IMG/VR virus record: IMGVR_UViG_3300035698_007168 | Span: 1 to 36,696 of that record | Length of the DNA: 36,696 nt | Strand: one strand, 5' to 3' | DNA from: a virus | Shown: piece after piece, positions 2,999 to 35,914 of the stretch | Numbering within the stretch: position 1 is the stretch's first letter | Layout: every line of letters starts with the position of its first letter | The notes under the pieces: generated by a model | Told to the model about the DNA's origin: nothing | Database searches by the model: none | The model's input: only the letters and a program-made list of their open reading frames with translations | Position numbers and translations under genes: made by a program

Positions 2999-3197
2999 TA
3001 TTATTCCCTGCTAAAATTTGTTCTAATTTTTGTTTCATTTCTTTGACGTCGCCAATGATTTTATCCATTTCTTTTAGCTTCTGTTTTACCATGCTAGCTT
3101 CTTTTTCTGCAGTACGAGCGTGAATTATTGCTTGATAATGACTATCATTAGTATTTATAACCATTCCAGAGTGTTGATCACGAATAAAGGAAGACAT
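2979..3197 (-). CDS. Small coiled-coil virion-operon protein, unknown function
   Basis: 72 aa. Residues ~30-63 (EKEASMVKQKLKEMDKIIGD and onward to EQIL) form a charged heptad-like helix predicted to be a coiled coil. The N-terminus is polar. The start codon shares one base with the stop of the 707-aa gene (TAATG on the minus strand), and its 3' end overlaps the start of the 580-aa gene by 20 nt. Its expression is therefore probably coupled to both. Small helical proteins in this position could be fibre chaperones or trimerisation aids, but that is inference; no family is recognised. Confidence 0.7.
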   Translation of the reverse strand: MSSFIRDQHSGMVINTNDSHYQAIIHARTAEKEASMVKQKLKEMDKIIGDVKEMKQKLEQILAGNNNVKTSS

Positions 3198-5320
3198 TAT
3201 GCAGATACCCCTATAACTTGAATTTGATCTACTTCAGGTACACTAAACGTACTATCTGATAGGAATACAATTTTGATCTGCATTGAATCAAAAGAATCAA
3301 ACTCAACAAGTGAACTATTATAATACCGCGAGACGTTATCATTAGTGACGTTATTAAATGCTGTATGATAATATTTTAAGAGATCAACTTTAAACCCAAA
3401 CCCTACTACGTTATTATTTGAGACTGCGTCACCTAGGGTAATTGCAGTGGAGTTAGCAGCAGTTACAACCCCAACAATATAATCTTCAGGGATCAGCGGG
3501 TTATAAAGTTTGACTACATCGTTAACTGCAATGTATGTAGTTGGGGTAACACCTTGGCCTAGAATAACCGCGTTAGCAGATTGAGTAGTAAATGTTCCGG
3601 GGAGCACATTCGCCGAAGCAGAATATTGAGAAAACCCTAGTTCAAATTCAATGAGGTCGTTTTTATCTTCCCGCGAAGAGAATTTATTACCGTTTTCTAC
3701 ATACTCAAGAGGGGTCCACGCTTTATCATCAAACGCTTCCGGGTCTTGGGAATTATGTATGCGTGTATAAATTTTGAGATCGGTGTTAGCAGGTCTGTAC
3801 GCAGTCATAAACACACGTACATCTTCTGCAAATCTGTTATTAGCAAAAGAAACTTTCTTAGCAATATGCTTACTTACCGCAGCACCATTATCCCCGACTT
3901 CACTATCAATTGATACGGTATTTGCGTTTGTAACGAGGTATGTGTTAGAAATCTTGTTCTGCATTACAAACATATCAATATCCCCACCTTCAATAGTCGG
4001 AGATTGGAACAACCCGGTATTAGATGCTGACACTGTTAGGGTAGCATCAATTTTAAATGATTTACGATCTATTAGAAGGTCAGTATTTGAGTAAAGATTA
4101 GCGTTATCTACTTCTAGAGACCTGGAAAGAATATAAGCATCCCAGTTGTTCAAATTTTTCTTTATAGGGTTATTAATCTCGAACTTTATACTATTACTGG
4201 CATCATATGTATATATTGATCCGTTATAAACTGCAGTAGTAAGTGTGGTAACAATCTTACCTGCTGCTGAGGTCCGCGTATCTCCTTTTATTTGTACACG
4301 ATCGACAGAGAATACCCCTACGGTAGTAATATTAGCAGTAGCTCCAGAATCAACCCCTGAAATAAAATCTCCGTTTACAAATTTTAGAGTTGTATTAGCC
4401 GTAGATTCGATTAAGTATAGTTTATTAATTAAATTATCTTTATAATAAACTTTACCCACAGGGGCGACTTTATACGTAGTAGCTGTATTTGAAAACGCAA
4501 TCTTAGAAGCGGTAGTCATATATGTGTTATTTACAACATTAAGTGTAGTATATACTTGTTTTTGGGTTGTATTACCATAAACGACTATCTTCCCACCGTC
4601 TGGGTAAGAAGAAAATGTAGTCCCGGTCCCGATAATAACATTATTACCTGCGGTTACACTAATAGTACCCGCTGCGTTTGCTACTTCTTTATACACCCAT
4701 TCTCCGCCCTGGAATGACCCTGCTCGACTTTCTATGTCTAAAAACTCGTAATTGTCATTAACATAAATTTCTGACGTTGTATTACTGATGTACTTGGCAA
4801 CTTTAACAGAAAATTTAAGATCAGTATCGGAAATAGCTTTATGAATATTCGTATTTGTTTTATTAAATAGTTTGCCGTCTTTAACAATGTTAGAGCCTGG
4901 AGACGGGGTATTAGTCCCGCTAATTCTATCACCTTGCTTATTTACCCACAGCTCAAAGCTCGGATCATCAAATATGATTACAACACCGTAGAAGCGACCT
5001 GATTTGAGTTTCAACGGGGTATTAAACCCGAATGTTGTCGGTGTAGAGGAGTCTGAAAATGAATAAATATCTTCATAACTTTTTCGTACTAGTGCTCCAT
5101 AATAGCATTTATCTAATTGAGGAGAGTCATTTTGAACTTCACATATTGTAATAGAGACGCCAGGAGATGGTTTCCCGGACGCGTTTTTACTTGGATCGGG
5201 CTTACTCTTAAAAAAGAGGTCAATAGAAGTAATACTGGTCTCAGATGAATTACTCACAATTTCAGGGTCAGCGTAGAACGTCTGAATCATTGTATAGTTG
5301 GTAATCGTTTCATATGCCAT
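3197..5320 (-). CDS. Large structural protein of the baseplate operon, family unnamed
   Basis: 707 aa, start ATG at 5320 behind an AAGGA-like ribosome binding site. The first ~190 residues have a jelly-roll-like character (FYGVVIIFDDPSFELWVNKQ). The middle holds a GTGTTFSSYPDGGKIVVYG module that recurs in gp8 and the DUF4815 protein. The C-terminal third contains FAEDVRVFMTAYRPANTDLK and a D-x-E-x-F-D-D-K-x-W segment, which I associate with structural proteins of T4-type marine phages. It follows the 1697-aa protein by 34 nt. By position it may correspond to T4 gp10 or gp11, but no direct similarity to them is visible. It is probably a peripheral baseplate wedge or fibre-attachment protein. 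Confidence 0.7.
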   Translation of the reverse strand: MAYETITNYTMIQTFYADPEIVSNSSETSITSIDLFFKSKPDPSKNASGKPSPGVSITICEVQNDSPQLDKCYYGALVRKSYEDIYSFSDSSTPTTFGFNTPLKLKSGRFYGVVIIFDDPSFELWVNKQGDRISGTNTPSPGSNIVKDGKLFNKTNTNIHKAISDTDLKFSVKVAKYISNTTSEIYVNDNYEFLDIESRAGSFQGGEWVYKEVANAAGTISVTAGNNVIIGTGTTFSSYPDGGKIVVYGNTTQKQVYTTLNVVNNTYMTTASKIAFSNTATTYKVAPVGKVYYKDNLINKLYLIESTANTTLKFVNGDFISGVDSGATANITTVGVFSVDRVQIKGDTRTSAAGKIVTTLTTAVYNGSIYTYDASNSIKFEINNPIKKNLNNWDAYILSRSLEVDNANLYSNTDLLIDRKSFKIDATLTVSASNTGLFQSPTIEGGDIDMFVMQNKISNTYLVTNANTVSIDSEVGDNGAAVSKHIAKKVSFANNRFAEDVRVFMTAYRPANTDLKIYTRIHNSQDPEAFDDKAWTPLEYVENGNKFSSREDKNDLIEFELGFSQYSASANVLPGTFTTQSANAVILGQGVTPTTYIAVNDVVKLYNPLIPEDYIVGVVTAANSTAITLGDAVSNNNVVGFGFKVDLLKYYHTAFNNVTNDNVSRYYNSSLVEFDSFDSMQIKIVFLSDSTFSVPEVDQIQVIGVSA

Positions 5321-25996: not shown

Positions 25997-26710
25997 ATGA
26001 AACTACCAGTAATAGATAAACCGCTATTTGATCTTGAAGTACCTTCCATGAAGAAGACAGTTCTTTCTCGGCCATTTGTTGTTAGGGAAGAAAAGATTCT
26101 TCTTACTGCCCAACAATCCGGGGTAGATAAAGACATAGTGCGGGCTATTAAACAAGTACTAGCAAATTGTATTCAAGAGGAAGATTTTGACGTAGATAAT
26201 CTAGCTACGTACGACCTTGAGTTTATGTTCTTAAAATTACGCGCAAGATCAGTTAACAATATCATTGAAGTATCTTATCGTGATAATGAAGATGATAAAG
26301 TTTATGATTTTGAAATTGATTTAGATAAAGTAGAAATGCTCCAGGGTGGGAATGCAGCTGCTAATAATATCAAAATTACTGACACTGTTGGTATTATTAT
26401 GAAACAACCTACTGTGACTATTTTAGACAATGCCCCTGAAGAGCCTTCAACTGCTGAATTGGTAGATTATCTAGTACTAGCTTGCGTAGATAGTATTTAC
26501 GACGAAGATTCTGTATACCCGTCTTCAGATGTTACTAAAGAAGAGCTTCTTGAATTCTTAGACTCATTAGATGTTGATACATTTAATAAAATTCGAGAAT
26601 TTTTTGATTCACTACCTCAAATGTATCATAAAATCACATATACGAACTCATTAGGAAATGTACGAGAAATCGAACTAACAACGTTAAGCGATTTTTTTAC
26701 TTGGGGCTAA
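25997..26710 (+). CDS. Baseplate hub / tail assembly chaperone (gp26/gp51-like), zero-frame product
   Basis: 237 aa in frame zero. The N-terminus (MKLPVIDKPLFDLEVPS, then LSRPFVVREEKILLTAQQ at residues ~24-41, and DLEFMFLKLRARSVNNIIEV) matches the T4 baseplate hub assembly family that includes gp26/gp51-type proteins. The gene lies directly before the tape-measure candidate, the place where many tailed phages encode a frameshifted tail-assembly chaperone. The zero-frame stop follows seven Ts by only three codons, and the -1 frame stays open for 59 further codons. The short form would be an acidic protein ending FFTWG; the long form would have 293 aa. Confidence 0.82.
   Translation: MKLPVIDKPLFDLEVPSMKKTVLSRPFVVREEKILLTAQQSGVDKDIVRAIKQVLANCIQEEDFDVDNLATYDLEFMFLKLRARSVNNIIEVSYRDNEDDKVYDFEIDLDKVEMLQGGNAAANNIKITDTVGIIMKQPTVTILDNAPEEPSTAELVDYLVLACVDSIYDEDSVYPSSDVTKEELLEFLDSLDVDTFNKIREFFDSLPQMYHKITYTNSLGNVREIELTTLSDFFTWG
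26692..26698 (+). promoter_or_regulatory. T-TTT-TTT slippery heptamer for -1 frameshift
   Basis: Seven Ts lie in the zero frame as gaT TTT TTT act, the X-XXY-YYZ arrangement. A -1 slip gives TAC TTG GGG and continues open to the TAA at 26875. A weak 5-bp inverted repeat (AGTCA at 26710-26714, TGACT at 26723-26727, 8-nt loop) lies about 11 nt downstream. No strong pseudoknot is obvious by eye. Confidence 0.65.
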
Positions 26711-26877
26711 GTCACAATACACTGACTAATTACTACACCACAGTTTTTGCAATGGCTCAACATCACAAATGGGCAATAACGGAAATAGAAGACCTTATGC
26801 CATATGAACGTGATGTATACGTGGAACTATTAATGGCTTTTCTTGAAAAAGAAAAAGAAGAGCTTCAAAAAGGATAA
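26698..26877 (+). CDS. -1 frame extension of the tail assembly chaperone
   Basis: After the slip the frame encodes YLGLSHNTLTNYYTTVFAMA and then QHHKWAITEIEDLMPYERDV and a helix ending EKEKEELQKG, 59 residues in all. The segment is protein-like, with an aromatic/His-rich H-H-K-W-x-(I/L)-x-E-I-E-x-(M/L)-x-P-(Y/F)-E-R-D pattern that I associate with the C-termini of T4-type hub assembly proteins. The only internal ATG (26752) has no ribosome binding site upstream, so separate translation is unlikely. Its TAA ends 6 nt before the TTG of the tape-measure gene. A missing T in the assembly would mimic the same arrangement. Confidence 0.7.
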   Translation, partial: YLGLSHNTLTNYYTTVFAMAQHHKWAITEIEDLMPYERDVYVELLMAFLEKEKEELQKG

Positions 26878-26883
26878 CACGCG

Positions 26884-28674
26884 TTGGGACTAGGTAAACT
26901 CATTAAGACACAAGTCAAGGCACGCGGTCGTTTAGGCATGCGGCGTGTACGTCAACGTGGACGCGAAATAGCAGCTGATGCTCGTGGGTTTGTTCCTAAT
27001 ACAAAATCTAACGTAAAAGATATGTTTCGCCACCGTGGCTTGAGATCAATTGGTAAAAAATTAGGGATTTACGGACAAAGTTCAAATAGCGGGGAAAAAG
27101 ATTATACTATTCCGCCAATGGATACTCCTCAACGTATACCCTCAAAATCAAACCCACAACTAGCCTCTATTGAAGAACAGTTTGAAGCATTAGGTAAATG
27201 GTCTGAAAAGATTGCTGTTGGATTAAAGGGGCAACAAGAAAATCTAATTAAACAGGTCAGGTCAAAAGAAAGAAATTCAGGAGAAAGCTTAGAATCTCCC
27301 GGCTCTTTTGAAAACATGGCGGCTAACGATAATGCTTTAGCGCCACTTGGGAGTACCTTCGACGATTTAATTAAAAAGATTAATAAACTTATAAAGATTA
27401 TAGACAAATCTGGCGGTGGGGGTATATTAGATACCGTGCTTGATGGCGCAGGTATGTTAGGCCGCGGAGGTATTCGCGCAGCTGGGCGCGGGGTTAAGGC
27501 TGTCGGTAGAGCTTCTGTAACAGGACTAAAAGCTGCTGGGAGAGGTATTTCATCTGTCGGCCGTTTAGCTGGTCGCGGCGCTGCTGCACTCGCGCCTGCC
27601 GCTGTCGCTGCGTTGACTAAACCTGGGTTAGTAACTAAAGGTATTACTGGTATTGCGAGTTTAGTAAGATCAGGATCGGGCAAGCTCGCTGGGATGTTTG
27701 GAAAGAGCGTTACAAAAGCCGGCGCTGCTGCTTCTAAGGTAGTTAGTCCTTCAGTAATTAGAAAAATGGCGGCGCCTATTATTGGAAAAGCGCTTGGAAA
27801 GACTGCTCTTAAATCTATTCCTATCATTGGCGCGGTAGCAGGTTTAGGTTTTGCTGTAGGTAGGTTATTGGAGGGTGATGTTGTTGGAGCGGGGTTAGAC
27901 GCGGCTTCCGGGTTAGCTGGGCCATTTACTGCAATCCCTGCACTGATTGCAACTGTGGCACGGGATGTATACCAGGGCGCTTTCGGTGTTCAGCCAGAAT
28001 CAGACCCACAGGTAGGGGAGCGTATGTCTATGGTAACAGGCGCTGTCAAAGATATGGTATCTAATACATTAAAAGATAGCGCTGAAGCTAAGCCAAAAGT
28101 AACAAAACCATACGAGCCGAATCTACCTGCGGTCAAGACTCCCCCTGCTACTCAAGGATCACAATCAAAAGAACCTAAAGTCCCTCAAGCTCAAAACCTT
28201 CCCCCAGTAACCGATGCAATGCGTCCGGCTAATGATAATGGAGGTGGTGGAAAGGGAGCGTTCGCCTTAGCTGCTGGCGAGACTGCACAAATTCCAAGGC
28301 CAGGTGGCGCTGGAACGGGAGCGTTCGCCTTAGCTGCTGGTGAGACTGCACAAATTCCTAAACCAGATGGAAGCCCTGCTTCAACTTCTTCTCATATCCC
28401 TGCACCTGCACAAAGTGAGAAGGTCTTACAACCTGTTAAAGCTAGTGCTAGTGCTAATACCGGTCAAGACCTTCAAAAAGCTTCGATGGAGAATGATTCT
28501 TTAGCTAATCCTCCGCAACCTTCTGTTATGACACCTACATCTCAAGCTGGATTAACTCCCGCGAGGTCGAATACCACAAGGGATTTTGCAACAGGCATTG
28601 GTAACGTTCCTGACCCTAACTATAGGAATATGGGAACAATAGCAACCCAGCTTTACTTTGGAGCTAGAGTATGA
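26884..28674 (+). CDS. Tape-measure candidate (gp29 position)
   Basis: 596 aa; T4 gp29 is a similar 590 aa, but no clear sequence match is seen. The start is a TTG with AAAGGA 8-9 nt upstream; the next in-frame ATG would remove 18 basic residues. Residues 1-60 are strongly basic. Residues ~90-180 are helical and polar. Residues ~195-365 are Gly/Ala-rich and hydrophobic (KSIPIIGAVAGLGFAVGRLL, GPFTAIPALIATVARDVYQG), as expected for a protein stored in the tube lumen and ejected into the membrane. Residues ~390-570 are Pro/Ala/Gln-rich and contain two copies of GAFALAAGETAQIP. It directly follows the frameshifted chaperone. It ends in TGA, overlapping the next ATG as ATGA. Confidence 0.65.
   Translation: MGLGKLIKTQVKARGRLGMRRVRQRGREIAADARGFVPNTKSNVKDMFRHRGLRSIGKKLGIYGQSSNSGEKDYTIPPMDTPQRIPSKSNPQLASIEEQFEALGKWSEKIAVGLKGQQENLIKQVRSKERNSGESLESPGSFENMAANDNALAPLGSTFDDLIKKINKLIKIIDKSGGGGILDTVLDGAGMLGRGGIRAAGRGVKAVGRASVTGLKAAGRGISSVGRLAGRGAAALAPAAVAALTKPGLVTKGITGIASLVRSGSGKLAGMFGKSVTKAGAAASKVVSPSVIRKMAAPIIGKALGKTALKSIPIIGAVAGLGFAVGRLLEGDVVGAGLDAASGLAGPFTAIPALIATVARDVYQGAFGVQPESDPQVGERMSMVTGAVKDMVSNTLKDSAEAKPKVTKPYEPNLPAVKTPPATQGSQSKEPKVPQAQNLPPVTDAMRPANDNGGGGKGAFALAAGETAQIPRPGGAGTGAFALAAGETAQIPKPDGSPASTSSHIPAPAQSEKVLQPVKASASANTGQDLQKASMENDSLANPPQPSVMTPTSQAGLTPARSNTTRDFATGIGNVPDPNYRNMGTIATQLYFGARV
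28255..28358 (+). repeat. 63-bp-period duplication in the tape-measure candidate
   Basis: Two 41-bp copies (28255-28295 and 28318-28358) differ at a single position and lie 63 bp apart, so the frame is preserved. They encode GAFALAAGETAQIP twice. Duplication inside a tape-measure gene would change tail length by about 21 residues' worth if the segment is helical, but this region is Pro/Gly-rich and may not be measuring. Confidence 0.9.
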
Positions 28675-30737
28675 CTTTAGACTTTTTAGAAGATATGGAT
28701 CAAAACACGCTCTTAAGTGTAATTAAGAGAGCTAGTGTTCAACTATCTAGTATAAGCAATGATAAAATTGAAGTAATTCATAAGCAAAATGTTTTTGATA
28801 TGTCAAAAAGCCTTACTAAGGTTCAAAACAATTTTAGTAAGATGTTCACGTTTAATAGAAATATCTCAAAGATAAATCAAGAAGTGTCAGAAGTTGATCT
28901 CCGTGCTAGTAAGATAGCCGGGAAGAGCCCTACGCCTATTGATTCAGGGGGCGCTATTGATACTAGTCTTCCGGATTTAGGAGGAGCTATTGACGAGTTA
29001 ACAGATTCCTTAAAGAAAGCAGATCTATCTGGCGGCGGAGGCGGGATCGGCGGTGGAAGACGTGGGCGACGTGGAAGTGTGTTGGGTACGGTTGCTAAAG
29101 TCGCTGGTTCAGCAGCACTCGCGTATGGCGCATATAAAGTTACTACTTCTATGCTGGGAGCTGGTAAGTCTGAAACACCGAAGTCACCGATACCTACTGC
29201 TACACCTGCTTCACGTAATGCATCAGCTTCAGCGGCGCTTCCTAAAAAAGCAGTATCAGCTCTTGATACGACAGTAGAACAAAAAGAACCAGTCGTAAAC
29301 GATAAAGGTTTTGGATCTCAATTTGCGACTTATATTGGGGATACGTTTAGAAATATTACATCATGGGTATCTTCAATACCTGAAAAATTAGCTAATTTAG
29401 GTAATGCTGCATGGGACGGCGTTAAAGACATTGCAAATAGCGTAAGTACATTTACCGAAAACCTTGGGTCTAGCGCAGCTCCGGAAGGACAGCGCGGGGA
29501 GTACATGCTTACCGCATATAATGCATTTCGAGCTCAAGGTCTTACTGAAGAAGGGGCTGCTACTATGGTAGCTCAAATTAATAGAGAGAATAATTTTAAA
29601 CCGGAACATTTATTTGGTACACATATCGATGCAGCAAATAATAAAGTAAATGCTGGTATGTTGTCCTGGCAGGGTAGTAGAGGTAAAGATCTATTACAAT
29701 ATATGAAGGGCCGAGATCAGTTAGATGCTGCAGGTAAAATTAAACCAGGTGCTGCTAGTATCACCGCTATGTCTAACTTTGCAGTTAATGAAATGAAGAC
29801 AAAGAAAGAATATAATAAAAGTTATAAGGCAGTAACGAGTGGTGGGTCTTATAAGGAAATAGAATCCATCGTAGGTGATAATTATATTAGATGGAGACGT
29901 ACTGATCCAAAATATAGCGCGGGGGGATATAGAAATCAAAATAAAGGCTACCAAGAAATTACAGCTTTAGTAGCAAACGAACGGTCCCCGAATGCAGCTC
30001 GGAGGGGTCGACAGGTTGGGGAAGCAGTTAGCTCTGTAGGTAATTATATTACTAATGCATTTGGTAAAATGAAAGATCTCGTAGGAAGTACATTTACATT
30101 AGGCGGGGGTATTACCGGTAACCAAAAAAATCTAATGAATTGGCATCCTAAGTTTGAATCCGCCGTCGCAGGAGCCATTTCAGAGTATCATTCACGCACA
30201 GGTAGAAGACCAGTTATGACTTCAGGGTTTAGATATCCTGGTGATCAAGCTAAGATAACTGGAAAGGGGGGAATGAAAGCTAAGGTTGGTAAATCTCGCC
30301 ACGAAAAAGGTCAAGCGGTTGATTTTAATGGCGCAGATGTTGATCGTATGAGGGCTATGGGTATCTTAGATAAATACGGGCTCGAGCAACCATACCCTAG
30401 GGATAATGTCCACATCCAATTAAAGGGAGGACCTCTTGCTGCTGCCAGAATTGATCCGATTTTTGCTGACGGTGAAGATTCACTTAAGTCTGAGCCAAGA
30501 CTAGCGGCAGATTCTAAACCAATCCCTACCCCACGCCAAGCAGCATTTACAGCTACATCGCAAGCTAGTGTTTATACACGCAAACTTAACAAAAACGGCC
30601 GCGCTGGTGTTGGAGGAGGTTCCACAAAATCCCCACCTCAAGTTGTAGTAGCAAATGGCGGTGGAAAGCCTAATAAACCTGCATCTAATGGATCCCCTAC
30701 TAATTGGTTCTTAGCGTATTTCGGTGTTGGGACATAA
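28671..30737 (+). CDS. Tail-associated bifunctional lysin (lysozyme-like plus M15 peptidase)
   Basis: 688 aa. The N-terminal ~110 residues are helical. A Gly-rich stretch and one hydrophobic segment (GTVAKVAGSAALAYGAYKVT) follow. Residues ~275-370 resemble phage tail lysozyme domains: YMLTAYNAFRAQGLTEEGAA, then VAQINRENNF with E306 as the likely catalytic Glu, and GMLSWQGSRGKDLLQYM. Residues ~490-585 form an M15/VanY-type peptidase domain with SGFRYPGDQ, SRHEKGQAVD (H544, D551) and VHIQL (H581) as probable zinc ligands. The C-terminus ends FLAYFGVGT, similar in style to the LYFGARV end of the preceding protein. T4 carries its tail lysozyme in gp5. Here gp5 lacks it, and this gene may supply the cell-wall-cutting activity. 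A transcription terminator follows immediately. Confidence 0.82.
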   Translation: MTLDFLEDMDQNTLLSVIKRASVQLSSISNDKIEVIHKQNVFDMSKSLTKVQNNFSKMFTFNRNISKINQEVSEVDLRASKIAGKSPTPIDSGGAIDTSLPDLGGAIDELTDSLKKADLSGGGGGIGGGRRGRRGSVLGTVAKVAGSAALAYGAYKVTTSMLGAGKSETPKSPIPTATPASRNASASAALPKKAVSALDTTVEQKEPVVNDKGFGSQFATYIGDTFRNITSWVSSIPEKLANLGNAAWDGVKDIANSVSTFTENLGSSAAPEGQRGEYMLTAYNAFRAQGLTEEGAATMVAQINRENNFKPEHLFGTHIDAANNKVNAGMLSWQGSRGKDLLQYMKGRDQLDAAGKIKPGAASITAMSNFAVNEMKTKKEYNKSYKAVTSGGSYKEIESIVGDNYIRWRRTDPKYSAGGYRNQNKGYQEITALVANERSPNAARRGRQVGEAVSSVGNYITNAFGKMKDLVGSTFTLGGGITGNQKNLMNWHPKFESAVAGAISEYHSRTGRRPVMTSGFRYPGDQAKITGKGGMKAKVGKSRHEKGQAVDFNGADVDRMRAMGILDKYGLEQPYPRDNVHIQLKGGPLAAARIDPIFADGEDSLKSEPRLAADSKPIPTPRQAAFTATSQASVYTRKLNKNGRAGVGGGSTKSPPQVVVANGGGKPNKPASNGSPTNWFLAYFGVGT

Positions 30738-32602: not shown

Positions 32603-33142
32603 TTAACCTTTATAAAAAATATGCGACCCAATTCTTCGCGTTACTGTAAAAATTCGAGCCCAGCTGGGAAATACGCCTCTTGCATGAAAAAACTTAGCAC
32701 CCCCCGTGTTATCTGGAATATTATTAATATATACATTTTCTGCGATCACTGTAACTTTATTGTAAGTTGCCTTATCAATGATCCTTCTATTAGGACTACA
32801 TACCCAAGAAAATTGACATACTCTTGATGTTCTCTGCTTGACCACGCCGCATGCAGTTCTAGGCCATCTACGGTCTTCCACACGATTCATTACGACGTTT
32901 GTTACAGCTATTTGACCTGCTCTGCTCTCACCGCGGGCTTCAAAGTAAGCATTTTCCGCGAGGCATTTTATTTGTTGTTCATCGTGTGAGTTAATTCTCA
33001 CAGGAACGTGCTGTACTTTGACAACTGGGGTAGGTGTGACTTTAGATTTGGGTACAGCAGATACAGTAGTCATTAAGATTATTGCAATCAAAAAACCTAA
33101 TACTATACCGCCAAACCATTTTGCTTTTAGTGTATGACTCAT
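32603..33142 (-). CDS. SleB-type cell wall hydrolase, membrane-anchored endolysin candidate
   Basis: 179 aa. Residues ~10-29 (FGGIVLGFLIAIILMTTVSA) form a single hydrophobic segment after a short basic N-terminus, either a signal anchor or signal peptide. Residues ~55-175 match the Hydrolase_2/SleB family: CLAENAYFEARGESRAGQIA with E68 as probable catalytic Glu, VTNVVMNRV, and VCQFSWVC. Such enzymes cleave peptidoglycan glycan strands and are common endolysins of phages of alphaproteobacteria. With a signal-anchor it could be a SAR-type endolysin working without a holin pore. It lies upstream of gp33 with a 4-nt gap, an unusual place for a lysis gene in T4-type phages. Confidence 0.85.
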   Translation of the reverse strand: MSHTLKAKWFGGIVLGFLIAIILMTTVSAVPKSKVTPTPVVKVQHVPVRINSHDEQQIKCLAENAYFEARGESRAGQIAVTNVVMNRVEDRRWPRTACGVVKQRTSRVCQFSWVCSPNRRIIDKATYNKVTVIAENVYINNIPDNTGGAKFFHARGVFPSWARIFTVTRRIGSHIFYKG

Positions 33143-33783: not shown

Positions 33784-34461
33784 TTATACAGTGTCTACGT
33801 TTTTAGCTTCAGCAGTGCGAAGTGTAGTAGTATCTATCGCCGCGCCTGTTTTAGCATACGCAGTAGTTTGTGAAGCATAGTTACGCATATTATTATTGAA
33901 ACGTGACTTATCTCCTACGTTAATGATCTTATGGAGATCGATTCCCATAGAAGTAGCAAGGGTGTCAGCGTTAAATTCTGCGCCAAGGAATACTACTTCC
34001 CAGCCCATATTTTTACAATTTTCGATCTTTGCTTTAATAGCTGGTAGATTATATTCCTGGCTGGCGTTTTCTTTCCCATCGGTCATAATAAGAATAACCT
34101 TGCGATCATTTTTACCTGTAGAAGCCGCATCAATGATGTTAGCAGTCGCATCATAAAGCGGGGTACCACCTCGAGGAGATGCCTCATTAATTTCAATAGG
34201 TGTGTAATCTTTGAATTTTACTTTATCACGGAGAGTCAATAGGTCAAGGACCCGCTGCGATAGCTGTAATGTATTATTCTTAACGAAATTACCACCGCCG
34301 TTATCAAATGCTGTCACAGTAATGTCGCCCTTAGCACCATCTTCAATGAGCCCTGCGACATATGTATTGATTGCTCCAATGGCATTTTCCCAACGCGAAC
34401 CACTCATAGATCCCGAACGGTCTAGAACTACATGCGCTGATACTTTTTTAGATTTAGTCAT
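33784..34461 (-). CDS. VWA-domain protein with intact MIDAS
   Basis: 225 aa, nearly all one von Willebrand A domain. The metal-ion-dependent adhesion site is complete: D14-x-S16-x-S18 (LDRSGSMSGS), T100 in RGGTPLYDA and D128 in IMTDGKE. There is no signal peptide or membrane span, so it is cytoplasmic. The C-terminal ~50 residues are polar. VWA domains usually bind partner proteins through a metal ion. The neighbouring upstream gene also ends in a VWA domain, suggesting the two act together. The ribosome binding site is weak (ATAAAG before AAAAAT-ATG). A hairpin terminator separates the two genes. Confidence 0.85.
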   Translation of the reverse strand: MTKSKKVSAHVVLDRSGSMSGSRWENAIGAINTYVAGLIEDGAKGDITVTAFDNGGGNFVKNNTLQLSQRVLDLLTLRDKVKFKDYTPIEINEASPRGGTPLYDATANIIDAASTGKNDRKVILIMTDGKENASQEYNLPAIKAKIENCKNMGWEVVFLGAEFNADTLATSMGIDLHKIINVGDKSRFNNNMRNYASQTTAYAKTGAAIDTTTLRTAEAKNVDTV

Positions 34462-34483
34462 ATTTTTTACTTTATAAACAAGA

Positions 34484-34510
34484 AGAGGGGGCCCTTAGTG
34501 AGCCCCCTCT
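34484..34510 (-). terminator. Hairpin terminator between the two VWA genes
   Basis: AGAGGGGGC (34484-34492) and GCCCCCTCT (34502-34510) pair perfectly over 9 bp around a 9-nt loop, directly beyond the DUF2828 gene stop. The following tract on the minus strand is TCTTGTTT, a poor U-run, so termination may be partial and could attenuate the downstream VWA gene. Confidence 0.7.
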
Positions 34511-34513
34511 TTA

Positions 34514-35914
34514 TTAGATGCTGTAACGGTCTATCATTACAGTAGAGCGCATGATTCCCTCAGGAGACATGGCTTCGAAATTCGCTTCAAGAACAGACTT
34601 CATAATAGCTGGTGAGAAACCAGATACAAGCGCGGTACCCTTTTCGTCGAAACGAACTGGGGCACCCTCAGATGCACGAAGATTCCAGAACACTACCGCA
34701 GGCTTTTTGTAACCAGCTTCCTGGTACTTGCGGTTGATCATTTCAAAGGCAGTATCGTCATAACCTCTGCAGCAGTTAAACTGCATATCAGAAAGAATTA
34801 GGACTGCCTGCGGCATATCTTCAGCTGCAACTTTGTTAGCAACTGCTACACGAAGAATTTCATCGAAAGCCTTGTGCAAATCAGTTGACATTCCCCAATC
34901 AGATGTTTCCATCTGGCGGATCTTCTGAGAAAGAGTACCCTTCACAGTCACGAACTTAGGAACAGAGGAGAACGTCAGGAACATGTCCTTGAACTCACCT
35001 TTGTTCTTATCTGAGCAGTATAGTCCCAGCGAGATCGCCACATCCATACAGCTCAGATTCTTCGAACCACCAACCTTATTGCCCATTGAGGCAGAAACGT
35101 CCACAAGTGGAAGAATCTTAGCATCCCCGATAAAGTCTGGCAGAGCCTTCCACTGTTCATCAGCAAGACCAGAATCACCATGGCGAACGTTCTTGACGAT
35201 GTCATATGGATATACCGCTCCAGCGTTCACCTTAACGGATGGATCGCCAGACTGTAGAGCTTCCTTGTACTCTGTGAATGCAACTGGGGCATTCTTAAGG
35301 AAAGCCTTTGAGTAACGAGACATAGCCAGAGAGGGAACGTGTGAGAAGTTAATCTCATTCCAATCCTGAGCACACATCTGAGTTTCAACAACCTTAGTCA
35401 GCTCAACAAGACGCTTACGGTAGAACTTAGGGCTCCAGCCGAAAGTATTGCGTAGATCGACAGCAACAGGCCCCTTACGTGGCATCCACTTAGCTGCTAG
35501 TCCGTTTCCAGCATCTAGAGCTTCGCGTATAAGACCAAAAGCCTTCGCCTTTACCTGCGCATCTTCAAAGATAAGCAGATCATCCCAACGACCGATTTCA
35601 GCTGTGTTAGCTAGAATTCGAGTGTTAAGAAGGTCATCACGATAGTTCTTTTCCAAGAACTTAAGGATCTGACGGTAAAGCATACGCTCACCAGCACCAC
35701 CGCGAACGTCGCGTCCCCACTGAGCAATACGCAAAGCTACGTCTCGATCTTCGTGATATGAAGTCTCGAACTCACGGGTAATATCCTTACCACGTGAAGC
35801 ACCTAGCTTGAAGAACAAGTCTGTGCTCTTTGAAAGTGAAGACTCCAATGTACGCATACCGTTTTCAGTACGTGTTTCAACTGGAGTGTTCAGAACTGCG
35901 TTTCTAAATGTCAT
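34514..35914 (-). CDS. DUF2828 protein: helical-repeat domain plus VWA domain, Ro60/TROVE-like architecture
   Basis: 466 aa. Residues ~15-250 carry DUF2828 signatures: NGMRTLESSLSKSTDLFFKL, REFETSYHEDRDVALRIAQW, RDVRGGAGERMLYRQILKFL, EIGRWDDLL, AAKWMPRKG, NEINFSHVPSLAMSRYSKAF and AGAVYPYDIV. Residues ~265-440 are a VWA domain with a full MIDAS (D272-x-S274-x-S276, T344, D376). The alpha-helical repeat plus VWA layout is that of Ro60/TROVE RNA-binding ring proteins, so RNA binding is a reasonable guess but not shown. Codon usage looks more GC-rich at third positions than in the tail genes and is closer to gp32, hinting at strong expression or separate origin. The ribosome binding site is GGAGAAATAC. 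Confidence 0.85.
   Translation of the reverse strand: MTFRNAVLNTPVETRTENGMRTLESSLSKSTDLFFKLGASRGKDITREFETSYHEDRDVALRIAQWGRDVRGGAGERMLYRQILKFLEKNYRDDLLNTRILANTAEIGRWDDLLIFEDAQVKAKAFGLIREALDAGNGLAAKWMPRKGPVAVDLRNTFGWSPKFYRKRLVELTKVVETQMCAQDWNEINFSHVPSLAMSRYSKAFLKNAPVAFTEYKEALQSGDPSVKVNAGAVYPYDIVKNVRHGDSGLADEQWKALPDFIGDAKILPLVDVSASMGNKVGGSKNLSCMDVAISLGLYCSDKNKGEFKDMFLTFSSVPKFVTVKGTLSQKIRQMETSDWGMSTDLHKAFDEILRVAVANKVAAEDMPQAVLILSDMQFNCCRGYDDTAFEMINRKYQEAGYKKPAVVFWNLRASEGAPVRFDEKGTALVSGFSPAIMKSVLEANFEAMSPEGIMRSTVMIDRYSI

Follow-up and report, generated by a model that had tools for sequence, protein, structure and literature searches.

The 3' end of gene 26 in the viral contig IMGVR_UViG_3300035698_007168 raises the question of whether this gene and the open -1 reading frame that overlaps its end encode two separate proteins or a single tail assembly chaperone. 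The contig (36.7 kb; its full 36,696 nucleotides are referred to here as the window) bears a T4-type tail module, and the features relevant to this question are collected in Table 1. Very probably, gene 26 and the -1 ORF are parts of a single gene for a tail assembly chaperone, the long form of which would be made by -1 programmed ribosomal frameshifting. This reading, which had been put forward in the first-pass annotation, is backed by the conservation of the site, its phase, the spacing to the stop codon, selection on the -1 coding frame, the match of the fusion to its family, and the fused counterpart in T4.

Table 1. Coordinates of gene 26, the predicted frameshift site and neighbouring features in the window
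Feature	Position	Strand	Basis or remark
gp4-like head closure	24272	+	
gp2 DNA end protector	24757	+	
Tail tube protein	25353	+	phrog_45 (1e-23); directly upstream of gene 26
Gene 26, short form (TAC-N), 237 aa	25997-26710	+	PF12322 / phrog_150
Predicted frameshift product of 293 aa (234 aa in the zero frame, then 59 in the -1 frame)	25997-26877	+	
Slippery heptamer T_TTT_TTT, in phase X_XXY_YYZ	26692-26698	+	Sequence
-1 frame: FF + 59 codons + stop, gp51 module (C-terminal part of the long form)	26692-26877	+	
Zero-frame stop TAA of gene 26	26708-26710	+	Three codons past the heptamer
Candidate stem, arms 26706-26714 / 26753-26761, 9 bp, 7 nt after the heptamer	26706-26765	+	Freshwater-clade consensus
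First in-frame ATG of the -1 frame, judged no real start	26752-26754	+	
Following ORF, 596 aa, Gly/Ala-rich, putative tape measure	26884-28674	+	Tape-measure position; weak family hits
Baseplate genes, including gp6, gp25 and gp48 tube cap		-	

When compared with Pfam, gene 26 matched PF12322 (T4_baseplate) with an E-value of 5.2e-51 and 173.9 bits (cut-off 24.5), and it matched phrog_150 at 7.2e-54. At least 80% of its length was matched in 546 annotated phage records. Judged by these curated profiles, gene 26 is a member of the T4-type gp26/gp51 chaperone family. The C-terminal module of gp51, the other mark of this family, is recognized by profile in the -1 extension, which matched phrog_634 ("baseplate hub assembly catalyst", gp51) at 2.3e-24. 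Elsewhere on the contig, on the minus strand at 33784-35914, a VWA-domain protein (phrog_7371) adjoins a DUF7788/DUF2828 "RNA-binding protein" (phrog_850). This VWA/DUF7788 pair lies near homologues of gp32 and gp59 and a cell-wall hydrolase (32603-33142).

The heptamer claimed in the first-pass annotation was found in phase before the zero-frame stop, where gene 26 reads GAT TTT TTT ACT TGG GGC TAA. An alignment of homologues, which had been proposed as a check, was made from 188 gp26 loci comprising IMG/VR contigs and 21 annotated phage records, T4 included, and identical ends were removed. Queries with the gp26 of Vibrio, Stenotrophomonas and Caulobacter phages contributed few IMG/VR relatives to this set. 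An in-frame T_TTT_TTN was kept in 106 of 110 distinct gp26 3' ends, and 37 distinct sequences besides that of the contig, all of them from separate contigs or records, had the T7 tract. The site was of the type TTTTTTC-G in 70 of the 106 ends and TTTTTTT-A in 30, with minor forms making up the remainder. In all relatives having the site, the stop codon followed 1-3 codons after the heptamer. Carriers include Kyanoviridae, Pootjesviridae, two Straboviridae lineages, and phages of Caulobacter, Sinorhizobium, Stenotrophomonas and Acidovorax. The four ends without a heptamer in register were those of T4, Bacillus phage SP-15, L057 and L186 (phage IME-SM1). A conserved, in-phase heptamer with a nearby stop, the arrangement that defines a candidate -1 programmed frameshift site, is found at this locus and across its relatives.

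The heptamer at the end of gene 26 is, on these counts, not a product of chance. It was present in 19 of 19 clusters (60% protein identity), and the probability of a T followed by TTT as the first Phe codon in all of them was ~1e-11, a crude estimate from locus codon usage that treats the clusters as independent. GC-rich phages that rarely use TTT still keep the site, as in Acidovorax phage ACP17 (14% TTT) and Stenotrophomonas phage BUCT608. Within the last 21 codons, an in-frame T_TTT_TTN occurred in 107 of 111 gp26 tails, compared with 3 of 397 tails of other genes at the same loci. The genes of the contig itself contain this motif in frame at 3 of ~11,000 codon positions. They encode 25 Phe-Phe dipeptides, only two of which are coded by an in-frame T_TTT_TTY; the second of these lies 51 codons before the end of another gene.

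Past TTT TTT, the -1 frame starts with TAC TTG GGG and remains open for 59 codons after FF, up to a stop at 26875-26877. The first-pass description of this frame held in its particulars, as both the HHKW and PYERD motifs were found and the frame ends 6 nt before the next ORF, which starts with TTG. In relatives, the -1 frame continues for about 150-210 nt. The match to phrog_634 begins at residue 2 of the extension, far ahead of the first ATG. For 23 freshwater relatives, pN/pS was computed from the zero-frame stop to the position of the first ATG of the contig. The value for the -1 frame was 0.21 in this segment and 0.19 after the ATG, compared with 1.47 and 1.09 for the other two frames in the segment before it, and the -1 frame was the only one free of stops. 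These values indicate purifying selection on the -1 frame ahead of any usable start codon, as expected of a programmed frameshift. The conceptual 293-aa fusion raised the score against phrog_150 from 184 to 202 bits. Its residues 1-279 aligned continuously with positions 5-276 of the 282 in this profile, and residues 181-291 aligned with positions 7-113 of phrog_634, spanning the junction. Since the fusion matches these profiles through the junction, the family databases already contain the fused form as a single protein.

Many public records annotate gp51 as a separate small protein, and in some phages (Cr30, phiM12, P10VF, Vibrio phages) the zero-frame stop has an ATG overlapping it or immediately behind it. 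Such a protein would have its own start, here TTG 26701 or ATG 26752, and could be translationally coupled to the stop of gene 26. We consider this very improbable. Candidate start codons in the -1 frame are scattered and their positions are not conserved among relatives; the start may lie at residue 4, past residue 20 or in between, and close relatives have TTG, CTG, GTG, GTT or GTA as their residue-4 codon. In the contig, 20 conserved, selected codons stand ahead of the first ATG, and no Shine-Dalgarno sequence was found upstream of this ATG, just as the first-pass annotation had stated. Where a Shine-Dalgarno-like element was found in relatives, its distance to the heptamer was 5-10 nt, compared with ~20 nt or more to any ATG. 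An upstream start in the -1 frame fares no better: in 25 of the 106 distinct sequences this frame is closed immediately 5' of the heptamer, so no start there can supply the conserved FFYLGLSHN. A separate start also leaves the conservation of T_TTT_TTN unexplained, and the module is fused in T4.

The fusion could instead be encoded by a part of the mRNAs if RNA polymerase slipped on the seven-T run and added a base. Such a run does exist and is kept in all 38 sequences of the T7-A type, but 70 of the 106 distinct sites consist of six T followed by C, and six-T tracts are shorter than polymerase slippage usually needs. The phase of the heptamer and the Shine-Dalgarno-like element indicate the ribosome, and slippage of the polymerase is accordingly a very unlikely source of the long form. 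Still less credible is a sequencing error or a decayed split gene, with eight Ts in truth and one continuous frame. Homopolymers are error-prone, and single indels occur near the site in three loci: upstream of it in L057 and L186, and just downstream of a retained heptamer in L091 (phage S-SCSM1). Errors of sequencing or assembly, arising in or close to homopolymers, probably account for these indels. Yet the contig shares its arrangement with more than 100 distinct sequences, which come from isolate genomes as well as from independent contigs, and the presence of the T7 tract in 37 other distinct sequences excludes an eight-T error in practice.

Programmed -1 frameshifting by the ribosome, the reading that we prefer, would proceed as follows. 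Most ribosomes would pass T_TTT_TTT and terminate three codons on, giving the 237-aa short form (gp26, TAC-N). In a minority, both tRNA-Phe would re-pair one base back on UUU UUU and enter the -1 frame; in relatives with UUU UUC, the same re-pairing would take place on U_UUU_UUN. The slipped ribosomes would produce the 293-aa long form (gp26-gp51, TAC-NC) as a minor product beside the abundant short form. We infer both the ribosome as the agent of the slip and the frequency of slipping from the sequence pattern. By analogy with lambda gpG/gpGT, the two forms may cooperate on the tape measure and tail tube, with the short form coating the tape measure and the extension recruiting the tube protein (PMC5009743).

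The surroundings of the heptamer differ between clades. Most clusters have a Shine-Dalgarno-like stretch whose 3' end is 5-10 nt ahead of the heptamer (paired Wilcoxon test over clusters, p ~1e-4), a signal that may partly reflect a conserved Leu-Glu-Gly-Leu motif. Shine-Dalgarno elements at this spacing stimulate -1 shifts in bacteria. The freshwater clade of the contig, with its T7-A sites, has no such element (mean of -1.1 versus -6.7 kcal/mol), and no internal Shine-Dalgarno sequence precedes the heptamer in the contig itself. The downstream stem in Table 1 was found in nearly all freshwater-clade relatives (consensus from 23). Its covariation is weak, with double changes in 2 pairs and a score that was reached by 23 of 500 shuffles. 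In the contig, two of the nine pairs are broken by C/A and A/C mismatches, and the fold downstream of the heptamer is no better than that of shuffled sequences (z = -0.6). Given the weak covariation and the broken pairs, this stem is not claimed as a stimulator in the contig. Synechococcus phage S-PM2 (L085, ~3150-3260) has a very strong hairpin after its site (z of about -8, 50 nt), and its relatives likewise have a strong hairpin 3' of the site. The S-PM2 slippery site is preceded by GGAGGGA and is a good experimental model site. In -1 frameshifting of the dnaX type, an upstream Shine-Dalgarno sequence is combined with a downstream stem. Most relatives of the contig resemble this type in having a Shine-Dalgarno-like stretch at similar spacing, and some in having a strong hairpin after the site, whereas the clade of the contig differs in the absence of the Shine-Dalgarno-like element.

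T4 provides the fused counterpart and serves as a natural control. Its gene 26 lies on the minus strand and its gene 51 on the plus strand, 50 nt apart, and both products are members of PF12322 (8.8e-64 for gp26 and 3.9e-52 for gp51). In T4 gp51, residues 1-201 correspond to PF12322 and are followed by the C-terminal module in one continuous frame; a profile of the -1 module built without T4 aligned with residues 200-244 (E = 9.4e-6). The C-terminus of T4 gp26, KEFFELL, is coded by GAG TTC TTT GAG at the relevant position, so that Phe-Phe is kept but no slippery site is present. The T4-like proteins and those of the contig thus share the family (PF12322, phrog_150), the C-terminal module (phrog_634) and a short plus a long form, but T4 obtains the two forms from genes on opposite strands and the contig from one gene with a predicted -1 frameshift. 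With two genes, T4 makes what other phages appear to make by frameshifting. Fused gp51 proteins were found across phages of E. coli, Klebsiella and Acinetobacter and in Aeromonas phages of the 44RR type, and the frameshift arrangement was found within Straboviridae in Vibrio Schizotequatrovirus and in Aeromonas phage AS-zj. Continuous frames without a slippery tract, which the first-pass annotation had named as evidence against its reading, occurred in the T4-proper lineage only, and there together with the two-gene solution.

In Bacillus phage SP-15 (L101, 1426-2365), the gp26 homologue has no T_TTT_TTN, and a sequence resembling the C-terminal module (..MAIFERKEMY..) sits in the +1/-2 frame, which suggests a different type of recoding or an indel. 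None of the inspected annotated phage records joins the two frames into one gene to show the frameshift. The gp51 extension is unannotated in the public records L088, L092, L095 and L098, and in others it has been given arbitrary internal start codons.

These differences among lineages lead us to a tentative scheme, to which we give slightly less than an even chance. One ancient frameshift may be shared by most T4-type phages with interchangeable helper elements. Six-T sites would rely on an internal Shine-Dalgarno sequence, whereas T_TTT_TTT_A sites of the freshwater clade would have lost it and would use full tRNA re-pairing and a downstream stem overlapping the zero-frame stop. The T4-proper lineage would have swapped recoding for a separate short gene and a fused long gene.

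In lambda, G/GT stands between the tail tube gene and the tape measure gene; in the contig, the tail tube gene is directly upstream of gene 26 and a candidate tape measure follows it. The first-pass annotation had taken the next ORF for the tape-measure gene. Its position and composition fit this assignment, and the Cr30 and SP-15 records label its counterpart a tape measure, but no convincing tape-measure match was obtained, and no similarity to the Cr30 and phiM12 tape measures emerged from sequence comparison. The 596-aa ORF is a plausible candidate for the tape measure. It has almost no relatives among annotated phages and is one of two large ORFs in tape-measure position on the plus strand (26884-30737). 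In the second of these, a phage tail lysozyme domain and a weak match to peptidase M15 were found. The slippery sequence of lambda is G GGA AAG, in contrast to T_TTT_TTN in the family of the contig, and no sequence homology was detectable. Likewise, gp26 had no sequence match to solved tail chaperones (HK97 gp13). An AlphaFold2 model of gp26 (pLDDT 87.6) matched many predicted gp26 proteins, while its Foldseek match to the solved HK97 gp13 chaperone (2ob9) was not significant (E = 3.5, probability 0.20, target TM 0.39), so that similarity in fold is suggestive at most.

Conserved -1 frameshifting of the lambda gpG/gpGT type in tail assembly genes is well documented (Xu, Hendrix, Duda 2004; Levin 1993; summarised in PMC5009743). 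The chaperone genes of T4-like phages (gp26/gp51) were identified by Vladimirov, Gautam and Davidson (2022, Virology 566:9-15), as relayed in PMC10274946, PMC10885494 and PMC12846349. In the first-pass annotation, frameshifting was not known to be established in the gp26/gp51 family; this needs correction, as the phage Adele paper (PMC12846349), citing Vladimirov 2022, treats poly-T sites in T4-like TAC-N genes as known -1 signals. According to the PRFect papers (PMC10274946, PMC10885494), only "some" T4-like phages manage without frameshifting. A related case is the frameshift at GTTTTT in the chaperone genes of Vandenendeviridae and Andersonviridae, described for phage Adele. There, too, a poly-T -1 site ends TAC-N in a myovirus and the extension is open in all genomes (PMC12846349), but the phage families and the motif are different from those of the contig. 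As far as these citing sources convey, the T4-type chaperone frameshift is best filed as known in kind, with the contig adding another case. The contrast between six-T sites with a Shine-Dalgarno-like sequence and seven-T sites without one, drawn from the comparison of sequences, may be new.

What many public annotations call "baseplate hub assembly catalyst gp51" most likely has no gene of its own and is the end of a frameshift product. Frameshifting in most lineages, set against two genes in T4, offers an evolutionary comparison. The predicted frameshift supports a single rule for long-tailed phages, a short plus a long tail chaperone, which would extend to the T4-type phages that are most abundant in the sea and in fresh water.
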